Part shown: piece after piece, positions 17,140-53,517 of the stretch
How positions within the stretch are numbered: the stretch's first letter is position 1
Layout of the letters: each line of letters starts with the position of its first letter
Assembly (NCBI RefSeq): GCF_009002475.1
Contig: NZ_AP019860.1
Coordinates: 744,001-808,000, forward strand
DNA from: Candidatus Uabimicrobium amorphum
Lineage (GTDB): Bacteria; Planctomycetota; Uabimicrobiia; Uabimicrobiales; Uabimicrobiaceae
Length of the DNA stretch: 64,000 bases
Reading direction: 5' to 3'
Notes under the pieces: model-generated
Told to the model about the DNA's origin: nothing
Databases searched by the model: none
What the model saw: only the letters and a program-made list of their open reading frames with translations
Program-made: the position numbers and the translations under genes

Positions 17140-17169
17140 TCTTTCTCGGTATTTACTGAGGACTTGCAA

Positions 17170-20828: not shown

Positions 20829-23111
20829 TTAATAAGCATACTCACTAATCCATGAGGCCAATCCTGGCCTTGGGGAAAGTTGCTGCCATTTTTCTTGTGA
20901 TACTTTTTTCATACTCTGAAATTCGTGGTAACCAAAGATTCCGCCTCTTGCCAACTGGACTTTGCCATTTACAGGTATCGCAACCCACATTTCGTAGACT
21001 GCACCAACACCAGCATATAGATGATTGTCAAAGTTGGAACTATTGCGATAGTACATCGTTGATATATCTTGAATGGTTGCACTACCGTATTTACCTTGCC
21101 AACCTAAAACAAAGTTGCACAATTTTTTGTAATCTTTGTCACTTAACTCTTTGTTTTCGAGCATTTTCGAAGATATAACCGCTAGCTCTTTTAACATTTT
21201 TTTGTAGTGCACCAGCTCTTTGGCAACACCTGTTTGCAGAGGGTAACCAATGTGATGAAGCACTTCTTCAAAGTGTTCTATTTTCGTAGCCATGCGATTG
21301 AAAAATTCAGGGTATGGTTCTATTGTACCATGAAAATCCGCAGTGCTTTTTCCCGTGAAAACTGGTTGTCCAAAAGAAAGATCAAGTAAGCCACATGCTA
21401 CAGATGTCAATTTTCTCGCCTGCCATTCATCGGAATGGCTGAATATTGGAGCCCCCTTACCCTCCGGTATTTTGAGCGAATTTAACATCCATGCTAGACT
21501 AATAAGTCCTCCTTTGCCCCACGGATAGTTAACCGGTTGTAACTCTTTTTCCAAACGATCTTGGTATTTACGAACAGTAGACTTGTAGCCTTTGTATTCG
21601 TAATAACCTTTGTCTTCTGCTATGTATTTAGCTTTATGCCAACCCATGATTACTGCAATATCGAGTAAACTAGGATCCACACGCGGCAAATGAAGTTCAC
21701 CTACATAGGGATAGGTTAACTGTTGTAATATAAAGTCACAACCGATACTACGTCGCGAAAATATTCTCAGTCCACTTTGTAAACCCAATTCAGAACGAAT
21801 TTTAGGTAAACGTGTGCGAGAAATAGCTTTACAAAACTCAAGTAACTTATCTTTTTGTGAAAGAACATCTAGGGTAATTGTTGGTCCATATACATCTCTA
21901 GCAGTTTTCAAGTAATCCAGCAAATGTGGATCATCTGCTTGGCCGTAAAGAGCCGTCAGTATGTAATGGATTTCTTCCCAGATTGACATACCGTCTGTTG
22001 CGATTGTCGCAATCAACAACAACATTGCACTACGTGTTTCCGAAAGATACTGCTCTGCCACTTTTGAATAATGGTCTGCTGTGCGAAACAAGCATCTTGC
22101 ATACCATTCATGGGCAATTATGTATCTTTCTAGCCGTTTATTTTTTGGTTTGCGTAGCAGCTTGAAACGACTGTAATCCATCGCATAACCAAAAATGGGG
22201 CTATTGACAATTTCTACAGGATAATCATTTCCTCCTGTATAAATTAGCGTTAATTCTTCTTGGACCTGTTTGTTAATCTTCGAAGTAATCTCTTCGGGCC
22301 ATTGTTGTTTTAAATCTAGAAGTATAGAAGCTACGCGAATAAAAGCCAATGCTCTTAGGCTCGCTTTCTCATGTTGTGGCGCAATTTTTTTGTGTAGATT
22401 GATTAGTTTATGACCGATAACTTCGGTAAAGCTTGCCAGCCTACCGTAGAGTGCCTTTTCTTCTACATCAATTCGCAAACGCCCGAGTATATGAGAAAAG
22501 CCTGAGATCGCAGTATCTACCGTCACATACGATGGTATAGAGTTACGCTGATTGTTTTCATATATCTCATTAAAGGAGCCAAATCTATTCTTAGTTACAA
22601 CAAAACCTTTTTGACTTAAAAACTGAATTTCACGTTGGCTAAGATTTGCTTCCTTTAGGTAACGTATATTTATAGGAACTTCATACTTCGGAATACTTGC
22701 ATTTACTTTTACTACTTCATGTTCCACTTCACTTTTTTCTGGGAGACCAATTAAAGGAGTATACTCTAGTGAAAAAGTGTTTGTTGTATAAAAATTGGGC
22801 AAAAATAAGCTGACGGTGACAATAACAAATAGTGCTGCCACAAAAAGAAACTTTTGTACTAGGCTCATACCTGTAGGTTTTTTTTCATCTAACTTTTCCC
22901 ACAAGTCTGTGTTGAAATTATCCCAAGAGCAATCTGTTGGTAATGGGGCAACAAGTGTACTCAATTGCTGTTTGACATTATGTAATTCTTCGACTTTTTG
23001 TCGTAATGTGTCGTTACTATTAATGGCCTCTTCCACGTAGACTTTTTGCTCTTGAGAAAGCTGATTATCGACGTAACCACTAAGTAGAATCTCAAGATTT
23101 TCGCATTTCAT
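20829..23111 (-). CDS. Anti-sigma-like N-terminus fused through a membrane helix to DUF3160
   Basis: Residues 1-55 look like the helical part of a zinc-finger anti-sigma factor (LLSGYVDNQLSQEQKVYVEE), but the H-x3-C-x2-C zinc motif is missing; only Cys3 is present. A membrane helix lies at about 84-103. The rest, about 600 residues from RYLKEANLSQREIQFL and NRFGSFNEIYENNQ onward, matches DUF3160, an extracytoplasmic alpha-helical domain of unknown function. The protein probably spans the inner membrane once, with the anti-sigma part inside and DUF3160 outside. It lies 149 bp downstream of an ECF sigma gene on the same strand, the usual order for a cognate pair. An outside signal felt by DUF3160 could thus release the sigma factor; this is inference. 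Confidence 0.82.
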   Translation of the reverse strand: MKCENLEILLSGYVDNQLSQEQKVYVEEAINSNDTLRQKVEELHNVKQQLSTLVAPLPTDCSWDNFNTDLWEKLDEKKPTGMSLVQKFLFVAALFVIVTVSLFLPNFYTTNTFSLEYTPLIGLPEKSEVEHEVVKVNASIPKYEVPINIRYLKEANLSQREIQFLSQKGFVVTKNRFGSFNEIYENNQRNSIPSYVTVDTAISGFSHILGRLRIDVEEKALYGRLASFTEVIGHKLINLHKKIAPQHEKASLRALAFIRVASILLDLKQQWPEEITSKINKQVQEELTLIYTGGNDYPVEIVNSPIFGYAMDYSRFKLLRKPKNKRLERYIIAHEWYARCLFRTADHYSKVAEQYLSETRSAMLLLIATIATDGMSIWEEIHYILTALYGQADDPHLLDYLKTARDVYGPTITLDVLSQKDKLLEFCKAISRTRLPKIRSELGLQSGLRIFSRRSIGCDFILQQLTYPYVGELHLPRVDPSLLDIAVIMGWHKAKYIAEDKGYYEYKGYKSTVRKYQDRLEKELQPVNYPWGKGGLISLAWMLNSLKIPEGKGAPIFSHSDEWQARKLTSVACGLLDLSFGQPVFTGKSTADFHGTIEPYPEFFNRMATKIEHFEEVLHHIGYPLQTGVAKELVHYKKMLKELAVISSKMLENKELSDKDYKKLCNFVLGWQGKYGSATIQDISTMYYRNSSNFDNHLYAGVGAVYEMWVAIPVNGKVQLARGGIFGYHEFQSMKKVSQEKWQQLSPRPGLASWISEYAY

Positions 23112-23260: not shown

Positions 23261-23857
23261 CTACTTGGGTACCTTAATAGCATCGCAATTGTAACTTGTT
23301 ATCTGTTTGCGAATATAATCTCTTGCATAGTATATTCGCGACATTACTGTTCCCACATTGCATTCGAGAATTTCAGATATTTCCTTGTAGGAATAACCTT
23401 CGATATCACAAAGAACCAAAGCTGCTTTTTGTTTTGCGGGCAGCTGAGAAATTAGTTTTGTCAACTTCGATTGCAACTCTTTTTTTTCTAAACTTTGCAA
23501 CGGACTTTCTGTTTGTGCTTTATACTCAAGGGCAAGTTTTTCTCGATATTGTTTGTTTTTTTCGTTTTTCTTTAAAAAATTCAATGTAAGGTTAACACCT
23601 ATGCGACTAAGCCAACTGTAAAATGCATTAGGTGAGCGCAGATTGTGAATAGATTTATATGCCTTGATAAGAGTATCTTGTAACAGATCCATCGCATCGT
23701 CTTGATTGTGAACCATATAGTAAAGCAAACTATACAATTTATTTTTGTACTTACCTGCTAACATTCCAAAAGCAGATTTATCTCCAGCCATTGCTTTTTT
23801 TATCAGAAATTCTTCGTGGTTTTGCTGATCACAATTGATATTTTTTCCTGAAGTCAA
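23261..23857 (-). CDS. ECF-type RNA polymerase sigma factor
   Basis: The 198-residue protein has sigma region 2 (KSAFGMLAGKYKNKLYSLLY, then DDAMDLLQDTLIKAY) and region 4 (LPAKQKAALVLCDIEGYSYK, then GTVMSRIYYARDYIRKQI). It lacks regions 1 and 3, as ECF (extracytoplasmic function) sigma factors do. It directs RNA polymerase to a specific promoter set in response to an envelope signal. The ATG at 23857 follows AAAGGAACGCC. The anti-sigma-like/DUF3160 gene downstream is its likely membrane regulator. Self-regulation is common in the class, but I could not identify a matching promoter pair in the upstream AT-rich region. Confidence 0.9.
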   Translation of the reverse strand: MTSGKNINCDQQNHEEFLIKKAMAGDKSAFGMLAGKYKNKLYSLLYYMVHNQDDAMDLLQDTLIKAYKSIHNLRSPNAFYSWLSRIGVNLTLNFLKKNEKNKQYREKLALEYKAQTESPLQSLEKKELQSKLTKLISQLPAKQKAALVLCDIEGYSYKEISEILECNVGTVMSRIYYARDYIRKQITSYNCDAIKVPK

Positions 23858-39325: not shown

Positions 39326-41167
39326 TTAGTAATAACGAAAGTAAACACGTTCCACTTCCTCTTCGCTGACGATAAACCACTTGTGGTGCGATTGGGTAAT
39401 TTTTACAGGCATTGTATATGTTTTTTCGCGACAAACAATATAAATTTTTCCCGATAGTACAAAAGGATTTTTTCGCATTTGTTGGTAGATGTCCACGATG
39501 ACTTGTGCTTTACTTTGCGACCAGCTGACAACAAATTGTGGGTAACCTGCGCGCAGAAGCCATTGATCAGTGAATGTTTTGTATTGAGGAAGAGCACGTA
39601 TTAGTTGTGTGTAATTTCGGTATTTTTGGGTGTGGACAATGGTGTGCCACAAACGAAAAAACTTTTTATTTCCTAGATAAACGCGTAGCATATCAAATAC
39701 AACAGGTGCTTTTGTCGCTATTATTTGTGGGTGAGTAATACTTAGTGGATCGGCCAGTGCGTATTCCGTAGGAATATCTATTTTGCGATAGGAGGCCATT
39801 TTTTTATCCAGATGGTGAAAGTACCCTATTTTATTTTTTTTAGACTTTATATAAAGTGCGCTAAGATAACTAGTAACGGCGAGGCGTAAATTAGCAGCTA
39901 AGTGTGGAACAAATAATTTCGCCAGTTGCGAAACAAAGGACAGTTTTTCGACATCGTCTTCTGTGGCTAGGCTGAGAAAATTATCATGTGAAAAATCACT
40001 ATTTACAATGACAATCACATCGGATTTTATGGTTTTTTTCCACAGTTTTTGTAGAAATAAAATTTGTTGGTGTATGCGATCTACTGTTGCCTTGTTACCA
40101 TTGACAACAATGAGGTGATTTGACGAGGAAAGTTTTTTACTCAGGTACTTTTTACCAATAAATAAACAAAATCTTTGTGGAGAATACCGCAAAACTTTTT
40201 GACGAAACTCGATGACTTTGGCCGGCGAAAAGTACTTGCGAGTAATCACCGATAGGTTTTTGCCGGGATATATTTGGTAGTTGTAAGTCGCTTTTGTGGT
40301 GTACGTTGTCGGAAAGCACATGGCGATCCCCTGTGGATTTTTGTAAGGCATTCGCGCTTTTACTTGAAGGTGAAGGCGTTTTTGCGCATCCCATTTGGCA
40401 TTGGTAATGATTAGTTTGCCGAGTCCAGGGTACTTTGAAGCAATGACTTTCCAGTCGCAACGATGGGAACGTCGTGTAAAATGAACTTGAGAAATTTTTC
40501 CTAGCGCTACATACAGGGACAATTTCGCGACGTTTTTTCGCGCTTGCAACACAACTTGATTCTCAATGTCAATGTAGGCGTTTTTTACAAAAATCTTCAC
40601 TTGATGGTGGGTGACAGTAATATTTTTTGGTGTCTGTATTTGTTGTAGTGAAGTGTTTTTTAAATTGCGAAAGAAAACCTGTGGGGTATTTGCACGCAAA
40701 CGTAAAAAAACGTTTTTCCACCCTTGCTGTTGTTGTGGTGTTTGCCACGCCGCCACGTTTGTGGTGAGTTGCACAATCGTATATGCGTGTATTTGTGGAA
40801 TGCCAATTTCAATGACATGAGAGTTGTACAATTTATAAATAAGACGCTGGGCTTTTACATTGTTGATCTCGGTGTCTTGGAGTTGTATTTGTTGGTAATT
40901 GGCAGCGTTTTTTTCGATATCTGTGGCTCGCTGTTGCATATTGGCATACGTTTGTGGAGGAAAAGACATCAAAACAAAACGCGCTTTTTGTTCTATCGAA
41001 GTGTAGATAGCCAGTTGCGACTGCGGAGATTTCTGGTGTAACACGCTCCAGTCATCTCCAGGAAGAATAGTCTGAATGCCCAAAGCTTCGTTGTTAACTA
41101 CATAAGAATTGTCACTATATGCAAATAGTGAAAAGCAAAACAGCAAACAAAAATGAAAAAAACGCAT
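39326..41167 (-). CDS. Exported M1-aminopeptidase-like protein without zinc-binding motif
   Basis: The ATG at 41167 follows GGAAGGATTTTT and starts a signal peptide (residues 1-18, [13 protein letters not shown]). The first 180 residues are a mixed domain. A beta-rich part and a C-terminal half follow whose phrases [19 protein letters not shown] and [11 protein letters not shown] are typical of M1 (gluzincin) aminopeptidases. Where the HExxH zinc motif should stand, near residues 410-436, the sequence is [19 protein letters not shown], without the ligands, so the protein is probably not an active metallopeptidase and may bind peptides or proteins. It heads a likely operon with the COG0523 GTPase (11 bp) and CNBD kinase. 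Assignment to M1 rests on C-terminal pattern matches only. Confidence 0.65.
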
Positions 41168-41420
41168 AAAAATCCTTCCTGGAAAAATTTTTCCGTTTGA
41201 TATACGCCCTATTTGCATTAAAATAAATCGTTATCAATTACAGTTGGCTGCTTGGTGAACATTATTGTCTTTGCCACAATTTGGACAAAATTTGTGATAA
41301 CTTGCAGCATCGTACTACAGTATACGACGTGCACAGCCAAAAATAAACTTATTCTAACGTTTTTTGTGGCACAAGTTTGTTAGAACTAAAATAAACACAA
41401 CTCTTATTTGCAGGTTTGTT

Positions 41421-43433
41421 ATGCCTTACACAGTAAAAGACTTTGAGCAAGATTTACTCTCAAAACCATCTCGCGTCAAACCAGTGTTGTTATTTTGCAA
41501 ACAACTTATGGGAAAAAACATGCAGAAATTTGCTGCGGGTAAAAGTGCAACAGAGTTTGCAAATGTTGTTATTTTAGTTCTGGATACCAACGTTCCGCAG
41601 CAAACGGCGAAGTTTTTGGCATATAACTTGTATCCTCACGTAAAAGGGAATTCGCAACCTATACTAAAAAGTATAGGCAAATGGGAAAAAGAGAAAAATA
41701 CGCGAAAAGTAGTGAAGAGTTTGTGCAGCGTTTTGCAAAAAAGCAGACTGTCTTTGACACAAAAAAATAGCGTTCCAAAGAAAAAGGGTTTTTGGGGAAA
41801 TCGTATTGCGACGATATCTGCAAGTAAAAAAGTAATCGGGAATCGCGTGAAGACTATTATGCAGTCTGGTCCGCGGGCAATGAAAAACTTGTTTCGCGAG
41901 GAAACATTTACGTCGGCGAGTGCCCCGATAAAGAAAAATAAAACTATCTTGGGGACAAATTCTCCGTTAAAGGACAAGGAACTCGAAGATTTACGCGTAG
42001 AAACGCTTGTGTCTTTTAACAAACAAAAGCCTCATGCATGGGTTGCCATTCCCAACGAAAGAGAATTACTACGCGCCAGACCTGTGGACGTCTTCAAAAT
42101 TTTACGCAGTATATCGTTGATGATCAACTTGACCAGAGAGCAAAAAAAATTCGTCAACTTCCTCAAAAATACGCTCATGATTCGCTCAAAATTATTGTGG
42201 GAAGATGAAATCATCATAAACATAATAAACCAGGGAATGAGATCGTATAATCATACTCTTGATCGTTTATCCAAGATTTGTACAAAGAGAAATGTAAATC
42301 GTAAAATACGCGATTATTTGCATTGCTGTACGGAAATACGCCTAAAAAAACACGGTAATTTATTTCGCAAACAATTCGATCGCGTTGCGAACATCCAAAG
42401 CTTGGATAAATTGCTGGATAGTTACACTTTGCAAAGTTCTACGGTGGTTCGCAAATACAAAGATTTGGCCATTATTAGCAATGTCAAAAATCTTTTGAGA
42501 GCGTACAATCGCAACCCGCAAAAGTTAGATGTTTTAATGAACAAGCATCTGGGAAAACACGGTGAAACCAATATCAAAAGTAAATTGCGTACGTTATTGG
42601 TGACAAGTGGCAGCGATATGGAGATTTTTCGCAAAATTCAGCGCGAAAAAAATATCCAAGGTTGTATAAATGTATTGCGCAGGAGTTCAGGAGATGCCAC
42701 CGTTTCCAAACTACTCGGTTTGATAGATTCGTTTATGCGTCCAGAGAACAGAACCACTTTTGGCGGTTTTAAGGCGAGCTTGAATTTTGTTTGCCCCGCA
42801 CTTGCTAGTAGAGTGGAAGCATTGATGAAGTCTCATGTGGTTTTAGAGTTAAATCGAGAGACCAAGACACTGCTCAATTCGAAAGAAGCGGCGATTACGC
42901 GTTTAAATTCTCTGACGAAGCTACTGATGATGCCCAAATACCAACAGGCAAATATTAGCATTTTTGAAACGTCTCCACGATCTGTGGCCGATAAAATTAA
43001 AGTGATTAAGGGAAGTAATTCTCAACAACTCAAAAGAAATATCGAGCATTCTTTTCCTTCTCCAGAGTTTCCAAAGAGTTTGCGAAATTTGGTAACACAA
43101 GCAAAGCAAGATCAGTCTTCGCGGGGCGAGAAAAACGTCGACAATTTCTATCGTGCACTACAAGATATTGAAAATAGAGTGAAGAGACGTGAGTTGACAT
43201 TGATAAAAAATGAGGTAATAAACCTATTTAAATCCTACGGAAATATCAATTTTTCTGGTACAAAATCGCAACAGTTTTTGAATGGTTACGCGATTGCGCG
43301 AGTCATCGAAGACTACTATCGCAATCCCAAAAGAGATAAAATAGATCTTTCCGTGGATATCAATCCACGAGTAAGAAGTAAAGTGAAGGCGATGATTGAT
43401 AGCGAACGACAACGACAGTTGCAAAAACTATAA
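41421..43433 (+). CDS. Large basic helical protein of unknown function, first gene of the 41-52 kb cluster
   Basis: I do not recognise this 670-residue protein. It is strongly basic and predicted almost wholly alpha-helical, with no signal peptide or membrane helix. A Lys/Ser-rich flexible stretch at about 110-190 separates an N-terminal helical domain from a long helical body. The end (NFYRALQDIENRVKRRELTL, then a second region ending RQRQLQKL) is also helical. The ATG at 41421 is chosen over an upstream GTG at 41364 because AGG stands 8 nt before it. It lies 10 bp before the next gene and starts a six-gene co-oriented cluster, so it probably belongs to the same function; its own role is unknown. 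Confidence 0.6.
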   Translation: MPYTVKDFEQDLLSKPSRVKPVLLFCKQLMGKNMQKFAAGKSATEFANVVILVLDTNVPQQTAKFLAYNLYPHVKGNSQPILKSIGKWEKEKNTRKVVKSLCSVLQKSRLSLTQKNSVPKKKGFWGNRIATISASKKVIGNRVKTIMQSGPRAMKNLFREETFTSASAPIKKNKTILGTNSPLKDKELEDLRVETLVSFNKQKPHAWVAIPNERELLRARPVDVFKILRSISLMINLTREQKKFVNFLKNTLMIRSKLLWEDEIIINIINQGMRSYNHTLDRLSKICTKRNVNRKIRDYLHCCTEIRLKKHGNLFRKQFDRVANIQSLDKLLDSYTLQSSTVVRKYKDLAIISNVKNLLRAYNRNPQKLDVLMNKHLGKHGETNIKSKLRTLLVTSGSDMEIFRKIQREKNIQGCINVLRRSSGDATVSKLLGLIDSFMRPENRTTFGGFKASLNFVCPALASRVEALMKSHVVLELNRETKTLLNSKEAAITRLNSLTKLLMMPKYQQANISIFETSPRSVADKIKVIKGSNSQQLKRNIEHSFPSPEFPKSLRNLVTQAKQDQSSRGEKNVDNFYRALQDIENRVKRRELTLIKNEVINLFKSYGNINFSGTKSQQFLNGYAIARVIEDYYRNPKRDKIDLSVDINPRVRSKVKAMIDSERQRQLQKL

Positions 43434-43443
43434 GGAGTGTGTT

Positions 43444-44838
43444 ATGCACCAAGCGCAAGCTTTTATTGCCATGCCTTTTGACCAAAAATTTTATACGGTG
43501 TACAAAACCATTCGCGCCGCATGTGAATCGTTAAATATTAAAGTAATTCGCATAGATGAAGTCTGGGCAAGAGAGGATATTTACAAGCAGATTGAAGAAG
43601 AGATACTCAACTCAGATTTTGTAATTACTGATTTTACCGGAGATCGAATGCTGGAAGTTCCCAATCCCAATGTGGTTCATGAAGCGGCCTTTGCAAGAAC
43701 AAAGAAGAAATATTTGATTTTAATGGCTCAAGATCACAAATGTTTGCCGTTTGATTGGCGTACAAGACCAGCGATTATCTATCAGATGACACCTGAAGGC
43801 CTTAGTTACTTAGAAGAACGGTTGGTTCTTGGTATTAAGGCTTTGATGGAGAAAGATGATTTTGGACGTGATTACGAAGAGGCCGCAGCACACAGCTTTG
43901 TCACGGGGTATCCACCGCAAATGCCTCAATATATGCCGGTAGGTTATGCCCCCACGACAATGAATTATGTTCCTCCAAGTAATAATACGTCACTAAGTGA
44001 GATTGAGGCGCATCTTATCTCAAAGCAAGCGCAACCTGTGGCGGTAAATAGCAATCATAGTTCACGCCTACCAAAAGGCTTTAACAAAAAGAAGGATCGC
44101 TTTGTGTGTCGCATTGATAGTAGCGAAATGATTCATATTCCTGCTACGGAGTTTACCATGGGGTTTGAAGATGAAGAGCCAGAACATCAGGTAGTGCTGT
44201 CGGAATACCTCATCGACAAATATCCGGTGACCAATCAACAATTTGCAAAATTTATGGAGTCGGGAGGATACCAATTCCAAGGATTTTGGAGTGAGGCTGG
44301 TTGGCAGTGGCGAGTAAACAACTCTATCTTACAGCCTGCTTTTTGGAATGATGAGAAATTTAATAGTCCTGATTACCCAGTCGTAGGGGTTTCGTGGTAC
44401 GAAGCAATGGCCTATGCCGCTTGGGCTGGAAAACACCTTCCTACAGAAGCTCAGTGGGAACTCGCCGCCAAGGGGTCCGGAACCAATCAATTTCCGTGGG
44501 GTGACGAAGAACCGTGTAATAAAAAAGCAAATTATCGTTCGCAATTCAAGCAGCTGACACCAGTTCAGCAATTTGAAGATGCACCTTCGGAGTATGGGTG
44601 TATTGATATGGCGGGAAATGCTTGGGAGTGGTGCTATGACTGGTACGATGACGATTATTACGAAAATAGCCCACGAGAAAATCCTCTTGGGCCAGGGTAT
44701 AGCAGTGATGAAGAAAAAGTATGCCGTGGAGGTGCCTGGACCTATGACGTGGATACTCTAAAAGTATATTATCGTTTTTTTGGTATCATTACTTTACGTG
44801 ATAAAAGCTCTGGCTTTCGCTGTGCTAGAATTTTATAG
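43444..44838 (+). CDS. TIR/deoxyribosyltransferase-like domain fused to an FGE-sulfatase-like domain
   Basis: The ATG at 43444 follows AAGGAGTGTGTT. Residues 1-145 match the TIR/nucleoside-deoxyribosyltransferase-like group: AFIAMPFDQKFYTVYKTIRA, IDEVW, SDFVITDFTGDR, and NPNVVHEAAFARTKKKY with an E in the expected active-site region. Such domains cleave N-glycosidic bonds of nucleotides or NAD, or sense nucleotides. After a Pro-rich linker (about 155-220) comes an FGE-sulfatase domain at about 228-464: IPATEFTMGF, YPVTNQQFAKF, GVSWYEAMAYAAWAG, LPTEAQWELAAKG, DMAGNAWEWCYDW and RGGAWTYDVDTLK. The paired copper-binding cysteines of true formylglycine-generating enzymes are absent, so sulfatase activation is unlikely and a binding role is favoured. 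The next gene starts 9 bp downstream. Confidence 0.8.
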   Translation: MHQAQAFIAMPFDQKFYTVYKTIRAACESLNIKVIRIDEVWAREDIYKQIEEEILNSDFVITDFTGDRMLEVPNPNVVHEAAFARTKKKYLILMAQDHKCLPFDWRTRPAIIYQMTPEGLSYLEERLVLGIKALMEKDDFGRDYEEAAAHSFVTGYPPQMPQYMPVGYAPTTMNYVPPSNNTSLSEIEAHLISKQAQPVAVNSNHSSRLPKGFNKKKDRFVCRIDSSEMIHIPATEFTMGFEDEEPEHQVVLSEYLIDKYPVTNQQFAKFMESGGYQFQGFWSEAGWQWRVNNSILQPAFWNDEKFNSPDYPVVGVSWYEAMAYAAWAGKHLPTEAQWELAAKGSGTNQFPWGDEEPCNKKANYRSQFKQLTPVQQFEDAPSEYGCIDMAGNAWEWCYDWYDDDYYENSPRENPLGPGYSSDEEKVCRGGAWTYDVDTLKVYYRFFGIITLRDKSSGFRCARIL

Positions 44839-44847
44839 GAAAAAATA

Positions 44848-47800
44848 ATGGATAACTTCTCGATAGCAAAACAATTTCCTCAATGGAATTTTCATGAGCA
44901 AATCGGCGACAATTATTTATTAACAACATACATCGCCGAGAATTCTAAACATGGAAAGTGTGTTTTGAAGTTATTTTCAAAAACTTTGTTGAGGGATAGC
45001 GAACAGACAAAGACTTTCTTCGAGCAGCTCGATACCACGATTCGTATCAGCCACATCAATTTGGCCAAAGTCCATCAAACGAGTATTTCCGAAGAGGGAA
45101 CGTATTTGTTTCGCGAATTTCTCGAAGGTGAGAGTTTAGAAAGTCAACTGCAAAAAAGAACTTTTACCCCTATTGAAGCAACGCAAATGATTCTCGACAT
45201 CGCTCAGGGAATTTTTTCGGGATATCCATTTGGGATTGTATACAACAACATCAAACCATCAAACATCATTGTGGATGACGCTGGCGTGGCGAAACTTTGT
45301 GACTATTGTCTTCCAGCCATTGAATTGGCCTATCTATCTCCTGAACAGATAAAAAAACAAGAGGTAAGTAGCAAATCTGATGTGTATTCTCTCAATATTA
45401 TATACTACGAAATGGTCAGAAAGCGTTTCCTATTTCACGGCAAGACGATAAAAGATATCATTGAATTACAAAGTAGAACAGCAATTCCTCCGCAGCTGAA
45501 GAATTTTAAAAATTGGCCGAAAGGTCTTCCTACGTCTATACGCGATATTATTTGTAAAAATTTAAATCGCGACCCCCAAGAGCGCGATACGCCTTTCCAC
45601 TTTGTGAAACAGTTAAACGGAATTCTAAAATCGCTAAAAGTTCCACGGCGCAATACCATTAAAATTCAGAAACAAACGGTAACACGCCGTGTCAAAAGAC
45701 CTAGTACGGACAAAAATGTGTGGGGAGAGGTCGGACTAGAAAATAATGTGGAAAGTCAAGTTCTTGCAGACGAATCGGTTACCGATGCCGAAAACATCGT
45801 TTTTTCTGAAGAGAAACTTGAGAAGTACATTCAAGAAGAGATTGACAGCGCTCTAACAAAATTTCGTACCGACAAAAATGAAATACTACCGTGTTTAAAG
45901 TTTTATTTTCCCAAAAAGTATGAAGAAACCATCGTTGGTTATTTACTTGACCTCTTCCATGAAGAGTGTTGGTTGATTAAAGACACGGATAAAATGAGCT
46001 ATCTCGAAATCGAGATTGATTTGGAAAAAGGCTGTATCCAAAAACATTACTACAAGTTTGAAAATATACTAGAAACAGCGATTAGTAAAGCTTATGAAGC
46101 CTATGATGGTAAAGACGAAGACGAAGATGAAGACGAAAACGATAACAACGAAGATAAGAGTCAAGAGAATAACGAACCAACGAAGGGTAACCACGATAAA
46201 ACAATCGATAGTGAAGATTTGTACAAAACAATTGATGTAGATAGCAATGAATTTGTTTTACCAGAAGTGAATGAAGACATAAGTGTTTCTGAAAAGGATG
46301 GGGTCACAAAAATTGTGACAGAAAAAGGCTCGGTGGAAATAGACAGCAAAGACTTGAGCGGCTCGCTGGATGGCTACGATTTAGAAGGTGAACACATTGA
46401 AACACTCAACGACATCACTGTTGATTCGTTGACTTCGGTGAAAAATTCAATAAAATCCTTATCTTTTACACGACAAAGCCTAATGGTAAGTCGCCAACTC
46501 ATTGGCAAAAAAGTACAGATTACCGTTGATTTCGACAATAGACATGAAGCCACTGCATGGGTTAAATTTGTTCGCAAATATAAACTTTACAAAGGAAAGC
46601 AGTTTATTGTTGAAGACGAAGATGTCGATGTAGAGGTTGAACCCGAAACCGAACGCCAAACATTTACGATTTTTATTGATCGCTTGAAAGCGTATGAAAA
46701 AGTAAGTGAACATATTGATCGCATCAAAGAGTTTTTTGAAGGTGACTATGAAATCTCCGAAATGGATCGTGGCGGAATGGGAGCTATTCTAAAACTGATT
46801 AGCAAACACGATAGTACGATTCTTTCCCTGCGCCCCGAAAATTATTGGGCGCGGTATAAATTTGCGGAATATTTAAAGAGTTTACGCAATCTAAAGGGGG
46901 AAGAAGTTTTTTACGCCGAACTACCCAAAGGAACGGAGTTTGTGATCAAAGTAGGATTTGAAGGGTATGAAGAGTCTTTAATCCAAGAAGCGAAGATACT
47001 GACGAGTTTGGCAGAAAATGAAAATATTTGCAATACGATTATTGGGTGTGTACAACAAGGGCGCCTATTTGCGCGAGATGAAAAAGAAGACCAAGAAAAA
47101 ATTGGTTATTACCTCATGCTGGAGTATGCACACCAAGGTAATTTAGAGCAAATATATAAGAGCTGTCCAGACAATCGACTTTCTCCTTCCATTGCCTTTG
47201 CGATTATGTATGGCATGATTCAGTCGTTAAAGATTTTGAGTGATAAAGGCATTATCCATCGCGATATCAAGCCACAAAATATTCTATTAGATAACAACGG
47301 CATTCCGAAGCTTACTGACTTTGGCTTGGCAATTACCACGAACCAGGCAAGTAGTAAGTTAACCGACGATCGCAAGAGACTATTGCGTATTGTCGACGAA
47401 AAATTCTGTAAAATTAGCATTCAGCGCGAACACATGCAAACTATTTTACAGAATCTAATACGTACACAAGAGAATTCGGAAGCCATCGACCTTGTGCTCC
47501 AAGAAAAAATAGAAATTCTTTCCGAAGCGATTGAAAAGTTAAAAAAACAAGAAGAACATCGCGCCGAAGAACTCAAGGAAAGGTATCGTCCCATTAGTGC
47601 GGAAGAAAACGCCTTGAAAGGTCGTTTTGCGGGATCGTTGTACTATGCAGCGCCAGAACAGTTTACAACGGATGTTGTACTAACAACAGCATGTGATATG
47701 TATCAATTGGGTATGGTCATTTTTACCATGTTGACTGGCAAAAAGCCCGTGAGCGGACGCAACACTTTTGATATTATGAGTAAAATTCTCGACCCAAATA

Positions 47801-48117
47801 AACCTCGTGTAAAAGATCACATTGAAAGTAGTCCTATCGTGGACATACTGAGTGAGTTGATCGAAAAAATGATTCAGCATCAACCACAAGATCGCATTGG
47901 CGTAGAAGACGTTCGCAAAACGATGTCAGAGGTTTTATTTGGTTATGCTCTAGAATTAAAGAAAGAGCCCATCTTTACCCCTAAACTAAAATTAAATGAA
48001 AAGCAACAGGAACGTTGGGATAAAAAAGTCGAGTACGCAAAGAAATTGCATAAGACATGCATAGACGCTATTTTTAGTACTGTATTTCAAGACCGTGGTT
48101 TACCCGAACTTCAATAG
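44848..48117 (+). CDS. Tandem pseudokinase-kinase protein with insert in the activation segment
   Basis: Residues 12-255 have a kinase fold with broken motifs: the catalytic loop reads GIVYNNIKPSN (HRD lost) and the metal motif is DYC, so this part is a pseudokinase. An acidic linker follows (about 413-455, a run of D and E), then an unassigned beta-containing domain (about 480-630). A second kinase spans about 634-1034 with intact GIIHRDIKPQN and LTDFGLAI. Between DFG and GSLYYAAPEQ it has about 90 extra residues, helical and coiled-coil-like (833-926). Activation segments are normally 20-35 residues, so this is a striking insert. There is no membrane helix. The pseudokinase may regulate the active kinase. 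It lies 9 bp after the TIR-FGE gene and 11 bp before the Nudix-like gene. Confidence 0.85.
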   Translation: MDNFSIAKQFPQWNFHEQIGDNYLLTTYIAENSKHGKCVLKLFSKTLLRDSEQTKTFFEQLDTTIRISHINLAKVHQTSISEEGTYLFREFLEGESLESQLQKRTFTPIEATQMILDIAQGIFSGYPFGIVYNNIKPSNIIVDDAGVAKLCDYCLPAIELAYLSPEQIKKQEVSSKSDVYSLNIIYYEMVRKRFLFHGKTIKDIIELQSRTAIPPQLKNFKNWPKGLPTSIRDIICKNLNRDPQERDTPFHFVKQLNGILKSLKVPRRNTIKIQKQTVTRRVKRPSTDKNVWGEVGLENNVESQVLADESVTDAENIVFSEEKLEKYIQEEIDSALTKFRTDKNEILPCLKFYFPKKYEETIVGYLLDLFHEECWLIKDTDKMSYLEIEIDLEKGCIQKHYYKFENILETAISKAYEAYDGKDEDEDEDENDNNEDKSQENNEPTKGNHDKTIDSEDLYKTIDVDSNEFVLPEVNEDISVSEKDGVTKIVTEKGSVEIDSKDLSGSLDGYDLEGEHIETLNDITVDSLTSVKNSIKSLSFTRQSLMVSRQLIGKKVQITVDFDNRHEATAWVKFVRKYKLYKGKQFIVEDEDVDVEVEPETERQTFTIFIDRLKAYEKVSEHIDRIKEFFEGDYEISEMDRGGMGAILKLISKHDSTILSLRPENYWARYKFAEYLKSLRNLKGEEVFYAELPKGTEFVIKVGFEGYEESLIQEAKILTSLAENENICNTIIGCVQQGRLFARDEKEDQEKIGYYLMLEYAHQGNLEQIYKSCPDNRLSPSIAFAIMYGMIQSLKILSDKGIIHRDIKPQNILLDNNGIPKLTDFGLAITTNQASSKLTDDRKRLLRIVDEKFCKISIQREHMQTILQNLIRTQENSEAIDLVLQEKIEILSEAIEKLKKQEEHRAEELKERYRPISAEENALKGRFAGSLYYAAPEQFTTDVVLTTACDMYQLGMVIFTMLTGKKPVSGRNTFDIMSKILDPNKPRVKDHIESSPIVDILSELIEKMIQHQPQDRIGVEDVRKTMSEVLFGYALELKKEPIFTPKLKLNEKQQERWDKKVEYAKKLHKTCIDAIFSTVFQDRGLPELQ

Positions 48118-48128
48118 GAGAACAATCA

Positions 48129-48830
48129 ATGCTCGATGAAATCATTCACTATTTCGCTATTTGGAATATCATTGAACCGTGTATCTTTATTTTTGTCATT
48201 TTCATTTTCTTTCGCGACCCCATACGTCGCTGGAATTTTTTTGGTTATCGTCCTACGGCAGTTACCGGAATATTTGACCCTAAATTAGAAAAAGTAATTT
48301 TTTCCAAAGTAAACGGTTTTTGGTCATTCAACCAAGGGGGAATATATGAAGACAATATGTACACAACTGTTGCCGACATTTTAAACCGTGAAGTAGGGCT
48401 TCCACAAACGCGCTTTAAGCTCATTTATTTTACTTCTTTGGGAAAAGTAAGACTGCACAACAAACGTTTACTTACACGTGCACGCATAAGTGCGTTTAGT
48501 ATTCGCAGTAAACTGCGTGGCAAAGGTTACATGGGGTGTTATATTCGCTGTAATCTAGAAGGTATTGAGAGTGTTATTAAAAAAGGTGCTGGTATTGAAG
48601 AAGTTCGCGTAGTGAGTTTTGCAGAGGCCAAAAAACTTACCGATGAAAGATGCGATCACGAAGAGCACCAAGAAAAAAAACGCAATATGATTATTGCGAT
48701 GATTGAAGAAATGGAAGGCTTTGCAAGAGACGAGAAAAAGTGGAGAGAAACGCAAAGTATCGAAGAAAAATCCGAAGAGAAGGCAAGCAAAGAAGCACAG
48801 CCAGAGAATAATGAGGAAAACGGGGAATAA
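48129..48830 (+). CDS. Membrane-anchored Nudix-like protein with degenerate Nudix box
   Basis: The N-terminus has one hydrophobic helix (about 15-32), then a domain at about 45-180 whose pattern resembles the Nudix fold: a strand TGIFDPKLEKVIFSKVNGFW, then GGIYEDNMYTTVADILNREV, then GLPQ and the strand KLIYFTSLG. Compared with the Nudix box GX5EX7REUXEEXGU, the first glycine and the final EVGL are kept, but the central RE pair is replaced by IL, so pyrophosphohydrolase activity is doubtful. The last 50 residues are charged and helical. Because Nudix enzymes act on nucleotide-sugar and ADP-ribose compounds, it may act with the TIR-like protein; this is inference. The stop overlaps the next ATG (TAATG). 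Confidence 0.6.
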   Translation: MLDEIIHYFAIWNIIEPCIFIFVIFIFFRDPIRRWNFFGYRPTAVTGIFDPKLEKVIFSKVNGFWSFNQGGIYEDNMYTTVADILNREVGLPQTRFKLIYFTSLGKVRLHNKRLLTRARISAFSIRSKLRGKGYMGCYIRCNLEGIESVIKKGAGIEEVRVVSFAEAKKLTDERCDHEEHQEKKRNMIIAMIEEMEGFARDEKKWRETQSIEEKSEEKASKEAQPENNEENGE

Positions 48831-49954
48831 TGGACATTGCGTTTTGTTTGTTTAAATATTTTCCCTTTGGTGGTTTACAAAGCGACTTCCTATCCATCGC
48901 CAAAAAATGCCGCGAAAAAGGACACCTCATTGATGTTTACACGCGTAGCTGGCAAGGGGAAATTCCCGATGGATTCTCTGTTCATTTGATGAAGACAAAT
49001 GCCATAACAAATGTCGGCAAAGATGTGGCCTACGCCAAAAAATTACAAAAAAAGTTGTCTACGCAGCAAAAACTAATTGTCGGTTTCAACAAAGTTCCAG
49101 GGCTACATGTCTATTTTGCTTCTGACAGTTGTTACGCGAGAAAAGTGCAGCATAAGTCGTCGTGGAAAAAGAGCTTTCTTCCACGTAATTATCACAAACT
49201 GGACCTCGAAGCAAGTTTATTTCACTCCCCGCAAGCCCATGTAATGTTTATCGCTCCGCAGCAATTAAAAGACTTCCAGGAATTTTACGATGTAAAACCA
49301 CAGTACACACATTTACTTCCTCCGGGAATTAACCCACAACTAAAAGAATATAAACGCGACAACAGTTATCGCGAGAAATTACTTGCCCATTTGCAACTTG
49401 CAAAAGATACGTTTGTGATCTTGATGGTTGGCTCAGGCTTTCATACCAAAGGTGTTGACCGTTCTATTCGTGCAATTCACAGCTTAAAAGACAACAAGGC
49501 ACACTTAATTATCGCTGGAAAAGGCAAAGAAACATACTTTGCGAATATGGCGAAAAAATTAGGTGTGGAGAAACAAGTTACTTTTCTAGGCGCGCGTTCC
49601 GATATTCACGAACTATATTTGGGAAGTGATATGCTTCTACACCCTTCTTATACAGAATCCGCAGGAAAAGTTTTACTCGAAGCAACAATATTGGGGCTAC
49701 CGGTTATTACCACCGCAAATTGCGGCTATGCTTTTTATATAAATAAGGCGAAAAATGGCATTGTCGTTCCCGCACCCTTTCGGCAAGAGAATTTGAATGA
49801 CGCACTCCAAAAAATGAGAACAACATCAAACCTATACCAAGTGTGGGGAGAGAATGGCTGGAACTATGGCCGCGAAAACGATCTTTACAGTCAGCATGAC
49901 CGAGCCGTCGATATCATTGAAGACGTCGGACGTTCTTTAAACTTGAAGATGTAA
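48830..49954 (+). CDS. GT4-family glycosyltransferase, WaaG-like
   Basis: The 374-residue protein is a GT-B fold transferase of family GT4. Its N-terminal domain has FCLFKYFPFGGLQSDFLSIA, the acceptor-side glycine loop typical of WaaG/RfaG (LPS core glucosyltransferase I). The C-terminal domain has MVGSGFHTKGVDRSIRAIHS, IAGKGKE and HPSYTESAGKVLLEAT with the E-x7-E motif that binds the sugar nucleotide. The LPPGIN phrase between domains is standard. It probably adds a hexose to a lipid A-core-like glycan on the inner face of the membrane, which implies an outer membrane. The start overlaps the preceding stop by 1 bp. Such a housekeeping-type gene inside this signalling cluster is odd; it may be recruited to modify another target. 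Confidence 0.85.
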   Translation: MDIAFCLFKYFPFGGLQSDFLSIAKKCREKGHLIDVYTRSWQGEIPDGFSVHLMKTNAITNVGKDVAYAKKLQKKLSTQQKLIVGFNKVPGLHVYFASDSCYARKVQHKSSWKKSFLPRNYHKLDLEASLFHSPQAHVMFIAPQQLKDFQEFYDVKPQYTHLLPPGINPQLKEYKRDNSYREKLLAHLQLAKDTFVILMVGSGFHTKGVDRSIRAIHSLKDNKAHLIIAGKGKETYFANMAKKLGVEKQVTFLGARSDIHELYLGSDMLLHPSYTESAGKVLLEATILGLPVITTANCGYAFYINKAKNGIVVPAPFRQENLNDALQKMRTTSNLYQVWGENGWNYGRENDLYSQHDRAVDIIEDVGRSLNLKM

Positions 49955-49988
49955 CGACACGTAGCTTGTTTATAAAAAGGAATGTGGT

Positions 49989-52172
49989 TTGGACCCTAAT
50001 TTTTTTGACCAATCTAACGATCTCGATCCTAGTTTTTTAAAGGGCATTGGTTCGCAAGACACGGCCCCAACCAAAGAGTTTACCATGCCATCTACGAGCA
50101 AGTTTGATCGCTATATGATTGAAAAAGAGTTGGGGCGCGGAGGTATGGGAGTCGTATACAAAGCCTACGATACAAAATTGCGACGAACTGTTGCACTAAA
50201 GGTGATTCTAAACAGTAACATTGGTGACGTGAAACGCTTCCGTTTAGAATCAGAAGCCATGGCGCAATTACATCATCCGCATATCGTACGCATATACGAT
50301 TTTGGCGAAGCACCGCAGTTGCATTTCACCATGGAATATATCGACGGTGTGACTCTTGCGGATTTAATTGATGAACAGAAAATAAAGCCGTTATTTTTAA
50401 TCAATCTCATGATGAAAATTTGTGATGCCCTGGCCAGTGCACACAAACATAAAATTTTACATCGTGATATCAAACCTTCGAATATTATGATTACGCGAAG
50501 CGGTGAGCCGAAACTGATGGACTTTGGTTTGGCAAAGATTTATGACAACGCGCAACAGAGTTTGTCTAAAAGCAACGATATCATGGGAACGCTTTTGTAT
50601 ATGGCCCCAGAGCAAATGATGGGGAAAGCTACGGAGAAAAGTGACATATATTCGATTGGCGCGACGCTCTATGAGGCATTGACATACCGCAACATTTACG
50701 ACGGGCGTTACTCTCACGAAATTCTTTTGCAAATGGCGACACATCGGCCGACACCACCACGACAAGTCAATCCGCAAATTTCTCCCTACTTAGAAGCTGT
50801 GTGCTTGAAGTGTTTAGAAAAAAAACAAATAAATAGGTATAAAAATTGCCAACAACTTGTTCGCGAGTTCAAGAATTTAAAAAGCAATAAACCGATACTT
50901 GCCAAAAAGTACACCTACCAAGACACGATTAAAAATTTTATTAGCGAACATCGCATACTCGTGGCCAGCACATTGGCGATTATTATTTCGCTTTGTGTTT
51001 CTCTTGCTGTAGTGGTGAAATACTCATTCGATATTAAACGCGAAAAGATACGTGCGGAACAAGGAGAAAATAAAGCACGGCAAGCAACCGCCGCGATAAA
51101 AAAAGAAAAAGAGAGAACCAAATTAGCCCTAAACAAAGTGATGAATATTCTTGAGTACTCGGTAAAGAACCATTCACATGTGTTTCGGCAAGACAAGAAT
51201 TTTGCCAAGCTTGTTTCCGAAGTTTTTGGCTCTGTGGGGAAGTATGGAGAGAACGAAGAATGGGGAGCAATAAAGGGCTTTATTGCGCAGATGAGCGGTA
51301 ATCTACAACAGAGTTTAGAATATTACAACGAGCAAGTTGCCAATGCAACATCTGACCCGATTGTTTACTACAACCGTGGTCGCATATTTGAAGAGTTAAA
51401 AAAATATAAACAAGCCATGGCAGACTACGACACCGCACTACAACTCAGTCCTAAGTATGTGGATGTTTATCACGCTAAAGCGACGATTTATGACATTTGG
51501 CAAAAATATGAGTCAGCGCTACGTGAGTATCGAAAAATTATGGTGATAAACCCCGATTACATGCCTGCCTACTTTAATAGTGCGAGTACTTACGAAAAAT
51601 TGGGGAACATATCTCAGGCATTTGTCAATTACAATAAAGCGCTGCAACTTGCACCAGATCATTCGCAAATTTACTATCAACGCGGAAATTTGTATAGCAA
51701 GTGTAAAAATTACAAATTGGCGTTAGTAGACTATAGCAATGCCGTTCGTACCGGACCTGATAATGCGATTTATTATTACAATCGCGGTAGTATATACGAG
51801 ATTTTGCAAGACGATAAGCACGCAGTTTTGGATTACAACAAGGCACTACAGCTCAATCCTAACTATGTGAATGCGTATTTCAATCGTGGCAATATCCATC
51901 GTAAACACAAAAATCATTTACAGGCACTACGTGACTACAATAAAGTCGTACAATACGCTCCGCAAGATTTCGAAGCGTATTGTAATCGTGGAACCATATA
52001 CTTTGCCTTGCAAAAATATCGCGAGGCCATTAACGATTTTCACAAATCCCTGGCCATTTCCCCGAAGTATTGGCAGGCACACCATAATTTATACTCGTGC
52101 TACAAAGCAGTCAATGAAAATGCAAAAGCACAATATCATCTACAAAAATCTCGCCTATTACGTGTTAAATAA
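49989..52172 (+). CDS. Ser/Thr protein kinase with membrane helix and TPR repeats
   Basis: The start is taken as the TTG at 49989, about 7 nt after AAAAGGAA; an ATG 7 bp earlier opens only a six-codon frame, and the next in-frame ATG is 32 codons inside. The kinase domain spans about 38-300: LGRGGMGVVYKAYD, VALKVI, KILHRDIKPSN, LMDFGLAK and GTLLYMAPEQ, all intact. A membrane helix lies at about 320-345, then a short coiled coil (345-385) and seven TPR units (about 432-715) of the form YNRGxIYxxLxKYxxAxxDYN. The TPR part probably faces the periplasm and binds protein partners. It is the sixth co-oriented gene of the cluster, 34 bp after the WaaG-like gene. A palindromic repeat follows downstream. 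Confidence 0.88.
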   Translation: MDPNFFDQSNDLDPSFLKGIGSQDTAPTKEFTMPSTSKFDRYMIEKELGRGGMGVVYKAYDTKLRRTVALKVILNSNIGDVKRFRLESEAMAQLHHPHIVRIYDFGEAPQLHFTMEYIDGVTLADLIDEQKIKPLFLINLMMKICDALASAHKHKILHRDIKPSNIMITRSGEPKLMDFGLAKIYDNAQQSLSKSNDIMGTLLYMAPEQMMGKATEKSDIYSIGATLYEALTYRNIYDGRYSHEILLQMATHRPTPPRQVNPQISPYLEAVCLKCLEKKQINRYKNCQQLVREFKNLKSNKPILAKKYTYQDTIKNFISEHRILVASTLAIIISLCVSLAVVVKYSFDIKREKIRAEQGENKARQATAAIKKEKERTKLALNKVMNILEYSVKNHSHVFRQDKNFAKLVSEVFGSVGKYGENEEWGAIKGFIAQMSGNLQQSLEYYNEQVANATSDPIVYYNRGRIFEELKKYKQAMADYDTALQLSPKYVDVYHAKATIYDIWQKYESALREYRKIMVINPDYMPAYFNSASTYEKLGNISQAFVNYNKALQLAPDHSQIYYQRGNLYSKCKNYKLALVDYSNAVRTGPDNAIYYYNRGSIYEILQDDKHAVLDYNKALQLNPNYVNAYFNRGNIHRKHKNHLQALRDYNKVVQYAPQDFEAYCNRGTIYFALQKYREAINDFHKSLAISPKYWQAHHNLYSCYKAVNENAKAQYHLQKSRLLRVK

Positions 52173-52181
52173 ACACTCATT

Positions 52182-52318
52182 GTCATCCCTGCGAAAGCAG
52201 GGACCCAGCGTCTACGAGTTAATTTTTCATTGCTGGTTTCCCGCTTACGCGGGAATGACATGGATTTGTGAGTCTTTATTAAAAAAGTTTTTACTCTTAG
52301 CTTACACGGGAATGACAC
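52182..52318. repeat. MITE/REP-like inverted repeat with an extra half-copy
   Basis: GTCATCCCTGCGAAAGCAGG at 52182 pairs imperfectly with CCCGCTTACGCGGGAATGAC ending at 52259, giving a 78-bp element with 28-bp arms. A half-copy, TTAGCTTACACGGGAATGACAC, lies at 52297-52318. Similar GTCATTCCCGCG palindromes are widespread in bacterial genomes. It occupies the gap between convergent genes and could act as a terminator. Confidence 0.8.
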
Positions 52319-52359
52319 ATGTGATAGGTGCTGACATCTTCGCTAAATCAATTTACTTC

Positions 52360-53517
52360 TTACTGATTTAACCACACAGGCTTTTGTGTCACAGGCATGA
52401 AAACAACATCTTCGAGAAAAGACTTCGCATCGGCGATGCACGCTTTGCCTTTGTCTGAAGAAAATACTTTGTACATGGAATCGACGTCTTTCCACCACAA
52501 GTAAGCAATTTCGGTGTCTTCTGTTGCGTAAACCACATATCCTTCACATCCCGAATCAACAAACGCTCCGCGCCCCATTTTTACATGTGCGTGTAGACGT
52601 TGTAAGAAATTTTCGTCGCCTTTCTTGCGTCCAACGTAAAGAACAATATGTGCGTCTGCTGACCAGTCCGGTGTTCCCAAAGAGGCGTTGTATAACACGT
52701 TGTTTTTCATCGGTTCCTTTTCATTCCAGGCTACCAATGGTTTTTTACTAACCTTTTGTTTCGCAAGTGCTTCGATGAAAAGATGTGTCAGTTGATGATC
52801 AGACTTTGGATTTTGGCCAGTGATTAATTCGCGATCGCGAACCGCATGACTTGTCCACGGCTTGGCGTGACTGAGTTTTCCACCCGCTTTTTTTAACGCT
52901 TCTGCAGGAAACTCTTTCATTTTACCGTGTAAAATATTTTCTTCGGCAAATTTCTCTTCGTCGTTAGAAAAAATTGTCATATTGTAATCTTTGTAAATCC
53001 AGCCATTTTCATCTTTCGCGGCTAGTAGAGCAATAGGACCATGACAGATAAGAGCTGTCGGTTTTTGTTGCTTATGAAAATGTCGTAAAACTCTTCCCAC
53101 TTGTGCGTCGCGACATAGATCTTCCATAGGCGCGTGGCCACCAGGAAAAAAGACGCCCACAAATTCATGAAGTTGTTCGTCACTTATGGTGGAAAGCTTA
53201 ACAGGGGCGACAAAGTGCGATAGCTGAATCAACTCTTTCGCTTTTTGGTACTCTTCTTTCGAAGAAAAATGCTGTACATCATCTCCCACCGCGTCCATAA
53301 CCGGTTTGTTACCCTGAGGATTGGCAAAGACAATTTCGTAATTGGCCTTCATTAGCGCCATGACAGGTATGGTTAACTCTGACAGAAAGAAACCTGTTTT
53401 ATGTTTACTATCATCGGCAAGAGTGATGTGATCGGAACTCGAAACAATCACCAATACTTTGTCTCTCTCAGCACAAATGCACGTTAAACACAATAGTACA
53501 GTTAGCAATAACTTCAT
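52360..53517 (-). CDS. Exported DJ-1/PfpI-family protein fused to a second domain
   Basis: A signal peptide (residues 1-16, ending CICA) leads into a DJ-1/Hsp31-like domain at about 20-250. It has the active-site cysteine in ALICHGPIALL, the FFPGGH elbow and TGQNPKSDH at the end. Such proteins act as glyoxalase-III-type enzymes, chaperones or amidase-like proteins; the cysteine is intact. Residues about 265-385 form a second domain (IVLYVGRKKG, FVDSGCEGYVVYATED), perhaps a dimeric alpha-beta barrel, not confidently assigned. Export is unusual for this family, in which most members are cytosolic. The ATG at 53517 follows GGGAGAAGAAT. The divergent LysR gene 98 bp away is a likely regulator. 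Confidence 0.85.
   Translation of the reverse strand: MKLLLTVLLCLTCICAERDKVLVIVSSSDHITLADDSKHKTGFFLSELTIPVMALMKANYEIVFANPQGNKPVMDAVGDDVQHFSSKEEYQKAKELIQLSHFVAPVKLSTISDEQLHEFVGVFFPGGHAPMEDLCRDAQVGRVLRHFHKQQKPTALICHGPIALLAAKDENGWIYKDYNMTIFSNDEEKFAEENILHGKMKEFPAEALKKAGGKLSHAKPWTSHAVRDRELITGQNPKSDHQLTHLFIEALAKQKVSKKPLVAWNEKEPMKNNVLYNASLGTPDWSADAHIVLYVGRKKGDENFLQRLHAHVKMGRGAFVDSGCEGYVVYATEDTEIAYLWWKDVDSMYKVFSSDKGKACIADAKSFLEDVVFMPVTQKPVWLNQ

Follow-up and report, generated by a model that had tools for sequence, protein, structure and literature searches.

Predicted conflict systems of multicellular bacteria, including those of planctomycetes, repeatedly combine domains of the TIR or DRHyd type, FGS domains and active or inactive kinases, some in forms with diversity-generating retroelements (DGRs) (PMC8195603, PMC7159879, PMC10907252). 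The FGS domains have been argued to be binding domains in these systems (PMC8195603, PMC7159879), and the DUF4062 family has been described as TIR-like NADases with distant similarity to nucleoside 2-deoxyribosyltransferases (NDT) and a conserved Glu, which occur in defence (2026 preprint, PMC13174449). In planctomycetes FGE domains are usually periplasmic and attached to a membrane kinase (PMC11032199). Here we describe a locus with related components from 'Candidatus Uabimicrobium amorphum', located in a window (the whole stretch of DNA that was analysed) of 64,000 nucleotides of contig NZ_AP019860.1, in which six genes follow each other closely on the plus strand from position 41421 to 52172. 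The original prediction, made from the DNA letters, had taken all six as one candidate system. We found that the six-gene unit is not a conserved set and that a trio formed by its first three genes is supported within one family. With the FGS/TIR conflict systems (PMC8195603, PMC7159879) and their DGR forms (PMC10907252) this trio shares a TIR or DRHyd domain, an FGS domain and a kinase, but it comes without EAD, NTPase, vWA-MoxR, protease or template repeat and is vertically retained. The six open reading frames (ORFs), all intact, are listed below with their positions in the window; here and elsewhere, membrane segments and secretion were assigned by eye from the sequences.

41421-43433, plus strand, gene 1: 670 amino acids, predicted all-helical, no known family
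43444-44838, plus strand, gene 2: 464 amino acids, TIR/NDT-like domain (residues 1-137), variable linker and FGE-like C-terminal domain
44848-48117, plus strand, gene 3: 1089 amino acids, predicted pseudokinase followed by a kinase
48129-48830, plus strand, gene 4: 233 amino acids, N-terminal membrane segment and putative degenerate RppH-like Nudix region
48830-49954, plus strand, gene 5: 374 amino acids, predicted WaaG/RfaG-type glucosyltransferase (GT4) of the lipopolysaccharide (LPS) core
49989-52172, plus strand, gene 6: 727 amino acids, TTG start, Ser/Thr kinase, membrane segment and TPR array

Gene run and neighbourhood in related genomes

The common direction of the six ORFs and the gaps between them (10, 9, 11, -1 and 34 bp) are exactly as first described, and the list of modules also proved right, with an FGE-like domain in gene 2 (PF03781, 2.9e-57), two kinase domains in gene 3, a GT4 enzyme in gene 5 and a kinase with TPR in gene 6. 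The window belongs to a 9.5 Mb single-contig genome of about 40% GC which is very rich in kinase-like stretches. In the 144 kb surrounding the cluster we counted 50 same-strand runs, comprising 30 single genes, 10 doubles, 6 triples, 2 runs of four, 1 of five and 1 of six, the last being our cluster and the longest same-strand run with gaps below 60 bp. Terminator-like sites on the plus strand are absent from all five gaps, and promoter-like sites are not enriched (34 compared with 28.2, standard deviation 5.4, in shuffled sequences); one transcript across the six genes is plausible. The presence of two kinases among six genes is unremarkable, because Ser/Thr kinases account for about 8% of the proteome of this organism (PMC11032199) and the motif HRDxKPxN occurs in 10 of 87 large ORFs around the window.

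For the comparison within the order we used six genomes, mostly metagenome-assembled genomes (MAGs), namely that of the window (G000), one of the same family (G001) and four of a neighbouring family within the order (G002-G005). The same-family comparison rests on one genome, G001, and adjacency of the trio is known from this genome and that of the window. When the 91 ORFs of the 144 kb around the cluster were compared with the 65 ORFs of G001 contig C149, the reciprocal matches formed one contiguous block of six genes, consisting of genes 1 to 3, a divergent gene, an ECF sigma factor gene and a DUF3160 gene, with a coverage of ≥0.78 for five of the six and of just 0.27 for the divergent gene. 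Genes 1, 2 and 3 keep their order and strand on C149, with identities of 36, 57 and 36% and gaps of 26 and 129 bp. Conservation breaks off abruptly after gene 3, and gene 4 and all that follows it are outside the block. Gene 4 has its G001 ortholog on contig C166 and transglutaminase and SpoIID genes as neighbours in other relatives; orthologs of gene 5 are located on G001 C134 and G002 C24, in G002 with a WaaP-family kinase gene alongside. No gene with gene 6 as its best match was found beside the orthologs of gene 4 or gene 5. Surrounded by unrelated genes, these orthologs are on contigs different from that of the trio, and the six-gene unit is therefore unsupported. Of the proposal of a single system the tie between genes 1, 2 and 3 has stood, as their order is kept in a second genus and two of them have relatives fused to kinases (see below); for genes 4 and 5 the neighbourhoods in relatives, which the original prediction had named as a check, speak against it.

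The three further members of the conserved block are located as follows.

39326-41218, minus strand, divergent gene upstream of gene 1: probably secreted protein, no Pfam match
23261-23857, minus strand: ECF-type sigma factor, ortholog within the conserved G001 block
20829-23111, minus strand: DUF3160 protein, ortholog within the conserved G001 block

A partial homolog of the divergent gene adjoins gene 1 in G001 too. In the window, 15 kb of other genes separate the ECF sigma factor gene from the cluster.

Domain architecture of genes 1 to 3

Gene 2 is present as one full-length ortholog in every one of the six genomes of the order, incomplete MAGs included, with 46-59% identity. Mean identity to the orthologs differs strongly along the protein, with 71% for the N-terminal domain (N-domain), 25% for the linker, 51% for the FGE domain and 70% for the last 35 residues. 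Regarding the N-domain, the earlier description as TIR-like is right at the level of the fold: a Foldseek search with its AlphaFold2 (AF2) model (pLDDT 91.6) returned SPARTA TIR-APAZ, the SfSTING TIR, NDT (7o62/8pqt) and DNPH1 with a probability of 1.00 and E-values down to 3.8e-05, and the model also matches SARM1, phage CMP/hydroxymethyl-CMP hydrolase and NDT models. At the sequence level PF05014 is matched by 11 of 12 members of the N-domain family (best 2.4e-6) and TIR_2 (PF13676) by 6 of 12 (best 2.5e-4), gene 2 itself being below the Pfam cut-offs (15.2 vs 28.8 bits for PF05014, 15.1 vs 28 for TIR_2), and a profile of the N-domain finds the T. brucei nucleoside 2-deoxyribosyltransferase (NDRT) at 4.9e-5. 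The AMPF motif, R36, D38, D63, N74, N76, E80 and F103-D104 are among the invariant residues; E80 is found in 12 of 12 members and corresponds in the alignment to a Glu in T. brucei NDRT. In NDTs the aligned Glu serves as catalytic nucleophile. The modelled fold, the weak profile matches and the aligned Glu are shared with TIR NADases, NDTs and DNPH1 (DRHyd of PMC7159879), and on the basis of the model we assign the domain at fold level to the TIR/NDT (DRHyd) superfamily, from whose families it is set apart by a signature of its own, AMPF...RxD...NxNV..E...FDW. As a precedent for this assignment DUF4062 comes closest, although Pfam gives no DUF4062 match for the gene 2 domain.

A sample of 392 planctomycete genomes contained relatives of the N-domain in 55, fused to WD40, AbiJ_NTD5, FGE or other domains. 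Outside the order, the planctomycete G041 encodes a protein that combines a gene-2-type N-domain with an FGE-like domain (L120 559-1887). At three loci of this order the N-domain stands C-terminal to a kinase-like domain (L090 3185-4501, L091 4669-5922, L094 3407-4627), and with its catalytic loop HQNIHPKS the kinase at L090 looks dead as well. A further TIR/NDT-like domain (L089 3721-4737) is located behind an N-terminal region which resembles HNH/restriction-type proteins by eye, with TIR_2 as the only Pfam match.

The C-terminal domain of gene 2 belongs to the FGE (C-type-lectin) fold family. Both FGE active-site cysteines are absent in gene 2 and in every ortholog, as seen in the segment GGSFLCHESYC of a bacterial FGE, to which GGAWTYDVDTL of gene 2 corresponds with other residues at the cysteine places. 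An active FGE is thereby ruled out, and without catalytic cysteines the domain is therefore probably a binding domain, by analogy with the role argued for FGS domains. It sits on a TIR/NDT-like domain, unlike the usual planctomycete arrangement with a membrane kinase. We also considered a DGR-diversified sensor and ruled it out for gene 2: a search of the 9.5 Mb genome for a template repeat found the 3' 199 bp just once, and conservation of the last 35 residues is high (0.70 identity).

For gene 1 no Pfam match above cut-off was obtained, and we judged its sub-threshold Pfam matches as well as a PADLOC match to AbiEi (0.0012, 50 residues) to be due to chance. A search of 99 genomes recovered gene 1 in six, every one from this order. 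Within the order its C-terminal domain (about residues 216-670) matched 19 ORFs, in 7 of which a Ser/Thr kinase precedes it in the same protein. An AF2 model built with two sequences is all-alpha and unreliable (pLDDT 52).

Judged by its motifs, gene 3 is a pseudokinase-kinase. The first kinase domain has Asn in place of the HRD Asp in 9 of 9 full-length members (YNNIKPSN in gene 3), with the metal-binding Asp kept and the next Gly lost, while Lys, HRD and DFG of the second domain are intact in 11 of 11 aligned members, two of which are without the pseudokinase half. Ahead of its conserved Lys the second domain carries an insertion, and a further one of about 90 amino acids lies between DFG and APE. 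The diagnostic middle region of gene 3 was detected in 6 of the 392 planctomycete genomes, all from this order, and in the tree gene 3 groups with G001 C149, G005 C204 and the pair G000 329228/G001 C84 (98/97). A dead kinase domain ahead of a live one in a single chain is also the arrangement of JAK/TYK2 (JH2-JH1), but gene 3 has order-specific inserts and we claim no sequence kinship beyond the kinase fold. In a review on bacterial pseudokinase families (PMC12599244) no match was found for tandem, dual-kinase or planctomycete terms. Another pseudokinase-kinase of the gene 3 type is located between heptosyltransferase and IspA-family genes both in the genome of the window and in G001 (L053 8209-12658 and L059 5601-10951), which gives the kinase family a further conserved gene context.

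Proposed function of the trio and alternative explanations

We give about an even chance to the explanation that genes 1 to 3 constitute a conserved signalling trio, which three further genes joined separately or by chance. In addition to the conserved order, the three genes are tied by fusions to Ser/Thr kinase-like domains, which are known for both the gene 1 C-terminal domain and the gene 2 N-domain. Within gene 2, the FGE-fold domain would bind a ligand and control the TIR/NDT-like domain, which in turn would either serve as a docking module or cleave a nucleotide, namely NAD+ or a nucleotide N-glycoside. Gene 1 would act as a helical adaptor, and the pseudokinase half of gene 3 would restrain the kinase half until a signal from gene 1 or gene 2 frees it, with protein phosphorylation as the output. 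We infer ligand control, adaptor and restraint from the architecture and from other pseudokinase-kinase pairs. As each of the order's six genomes has retained gene 2, the trio probably has a core role in the lineage rather than one in phage defence. The idea of a signal passing through nucleotide metabolites, to which the original prediction had also joined gene 4, can rest on gene 2 alone, as gene 4 has lost its catalytic motif.

Several points weigh against a signalling trio. Its linkage was found in two genomes only, and in the neighbouring family genes 1 to 3 are separated in at least three genomes out of four, so that they may not act together everywhere. The gene 2 orthologs of G002, G004 and G005 adjoin neither gene 1 nor gene 3, and in G003 the downstream side of the ortholog runs off the contig. 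Relatives of gene 3 also adjoin unrelated housekeeping genes, and the tree does not order the trio kinase of G001 and G005 C204 as to the closer gene 3 ortholog. Gene 1 has no assignable fold beyond the low-confidence all-alpha model. The gene 2 N-domain may hydrolyse NAD+ or a nucleoside, an activity that is putative, with the role of E80 taken from the alignment.

A more specific form of the trio, which we regard as speculative and improbable, is an undescribed relay in which a TIR/NDT enzyme under an FGE-fold sensor would make or destroy a nucleotide signal, and a JAK-like pseudokinase-kinase with a helical adaptor would pass it on to phosphorylation and to the cell biology of Uabimicrobium-like planctomycetes, possibly to prey engulfment. 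If the trio works as proposed above, a bacterium would combine TIR-type nucleotide chemistry with a kinase gated by a pseudokinase, components which are known separately in immunity and cytokine signalling. The lineage stands out for its engulfment of other cells and has the highest Ser/Thr kinase fraction known for a bacterial proteome. Gene 2 also offers an order-wide core gene for asking whether TIR/NDT-FGE proteins have roles outside defence. If the trio does not work in this way, a six-gene 'defence system' is still corrected to a trio with three bystanders.

Somewhat unlikely, in our estimate, is that the genes are chance neighbours, a co-directional run in a genome rich in kinases whose members share no function and are at most co-transcribed. 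The share of kinases in the proteome (PMC11032199), the many unrelated contexts in which relatives of genes 1 and 3 occur and the separation of genes 1 to 3 in the neighbouring family are all in line with this, but the high-coverage reciprocal matches on C149 are confined to genes 1 to 3, the sigma factor and the DUF3160 gene and form one block, well above background. For genes 4 to 6 the chance explanation does hold.

A conflict-system role, to which the original prediction had pointed, appears improbable; in such a system the FGE-like domain would sense an invader product, the TIR-like domain would deplete NAD+ in anti-phage defence or self-killing and the kinases would regulate. It is encouraged by the co-recurrence of FGS, TIR/DRHyd and kinase domains in predicted conflict systems described above, by the NADase activity of DUF4062 in defence and by a relative of the gene 2 N-domain in another planctomycete, which is fused to the AbiJ N-terminal domain 5 (L122 1141-1929) and is possibly an abortive-infection protein. 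Against this, gene 2 is not patchy but occurs order-wide in one full-length copy per genome with a slowly evolving N-domain and C-terminus (0.70 identity each), and it is not DGR-diversified, its 3' end being single-copy in the genome. By domain scan the six genes include no STAND/AP-ATPase, vWA-MoxR, EAD or protease partner, and the flanking genes scanned gave no EAD, STAND NTPase or vWA-MoxR, with libraries that hold no EAD models under that name. No defence genes adjoin gene 2. PADLOC yielded no specific match: apart from generic kinase models (mad6, PD-T4-6) there was a TIR effector model with a marginal value of 0.0082.

A true six-gene system that leads from a nucleotide signal to LPS modification is very improbable and largely refuted by the neighbourhoods, since in spite of the tight spacing and the start-stop overlap of genes 4 and 5 these two are unlinked to genes 1 to 3 in those relatives that possess them (G001 C166 and C134 vs C149; G002, G003 and G005) and the Nudix box of gene 4 is dead.

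Genes 4 to 6 and further observations

The description of gene 4 as degenerate Nudix-like is probably right, though weak by sequence. Among the NCBIfam models those of RppH alone match, at best with 0.0039 (among the orthologs) and below cut-off; no Pfam Nudix match was found, and a PDB profile search with gene 4 orthologs gave chance matches only. The register GYRP...W.F.QGGI...GL of RppH is kept, but a membrane segment is added and the Nudix box reads QGGIYEDNMYTTVADILNREVGL compared with GX5EX7REUXEEXGU, the catalytic Glu residues being lost in all four orthologs. With these glutamates lost, an active Nudix hydrolase was ruled out.

For gene 5 the label WaaG-like was an understatement, as residues 2-364, nearly the full length, match E. 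coli RfaG/WaaG (2iv7) at 1.7e-88 with no notable difference from this LPS glucosyltransferase. Going by this likeness, gene 5 is a WaaG-type enzyme of the LPS core rather than the special output that had been envisaged. Gene 6 is, from its predicted domains, one of very many membrane TPR kinases, receptor-like; 115 TPR kinases have been counted in 'Ca. Uabimicrobium amorphum' (PMC11032199).

An ORF located 3' of gene 6 (window 52172-52371) translates to ...WFPAYAGMT..., a string known from short dispersed intergenic repeats of bacteria. At the other side of the cluster, three very large consecutive genes on the plus strand (window 9776-20538) carry a kinase domain each.

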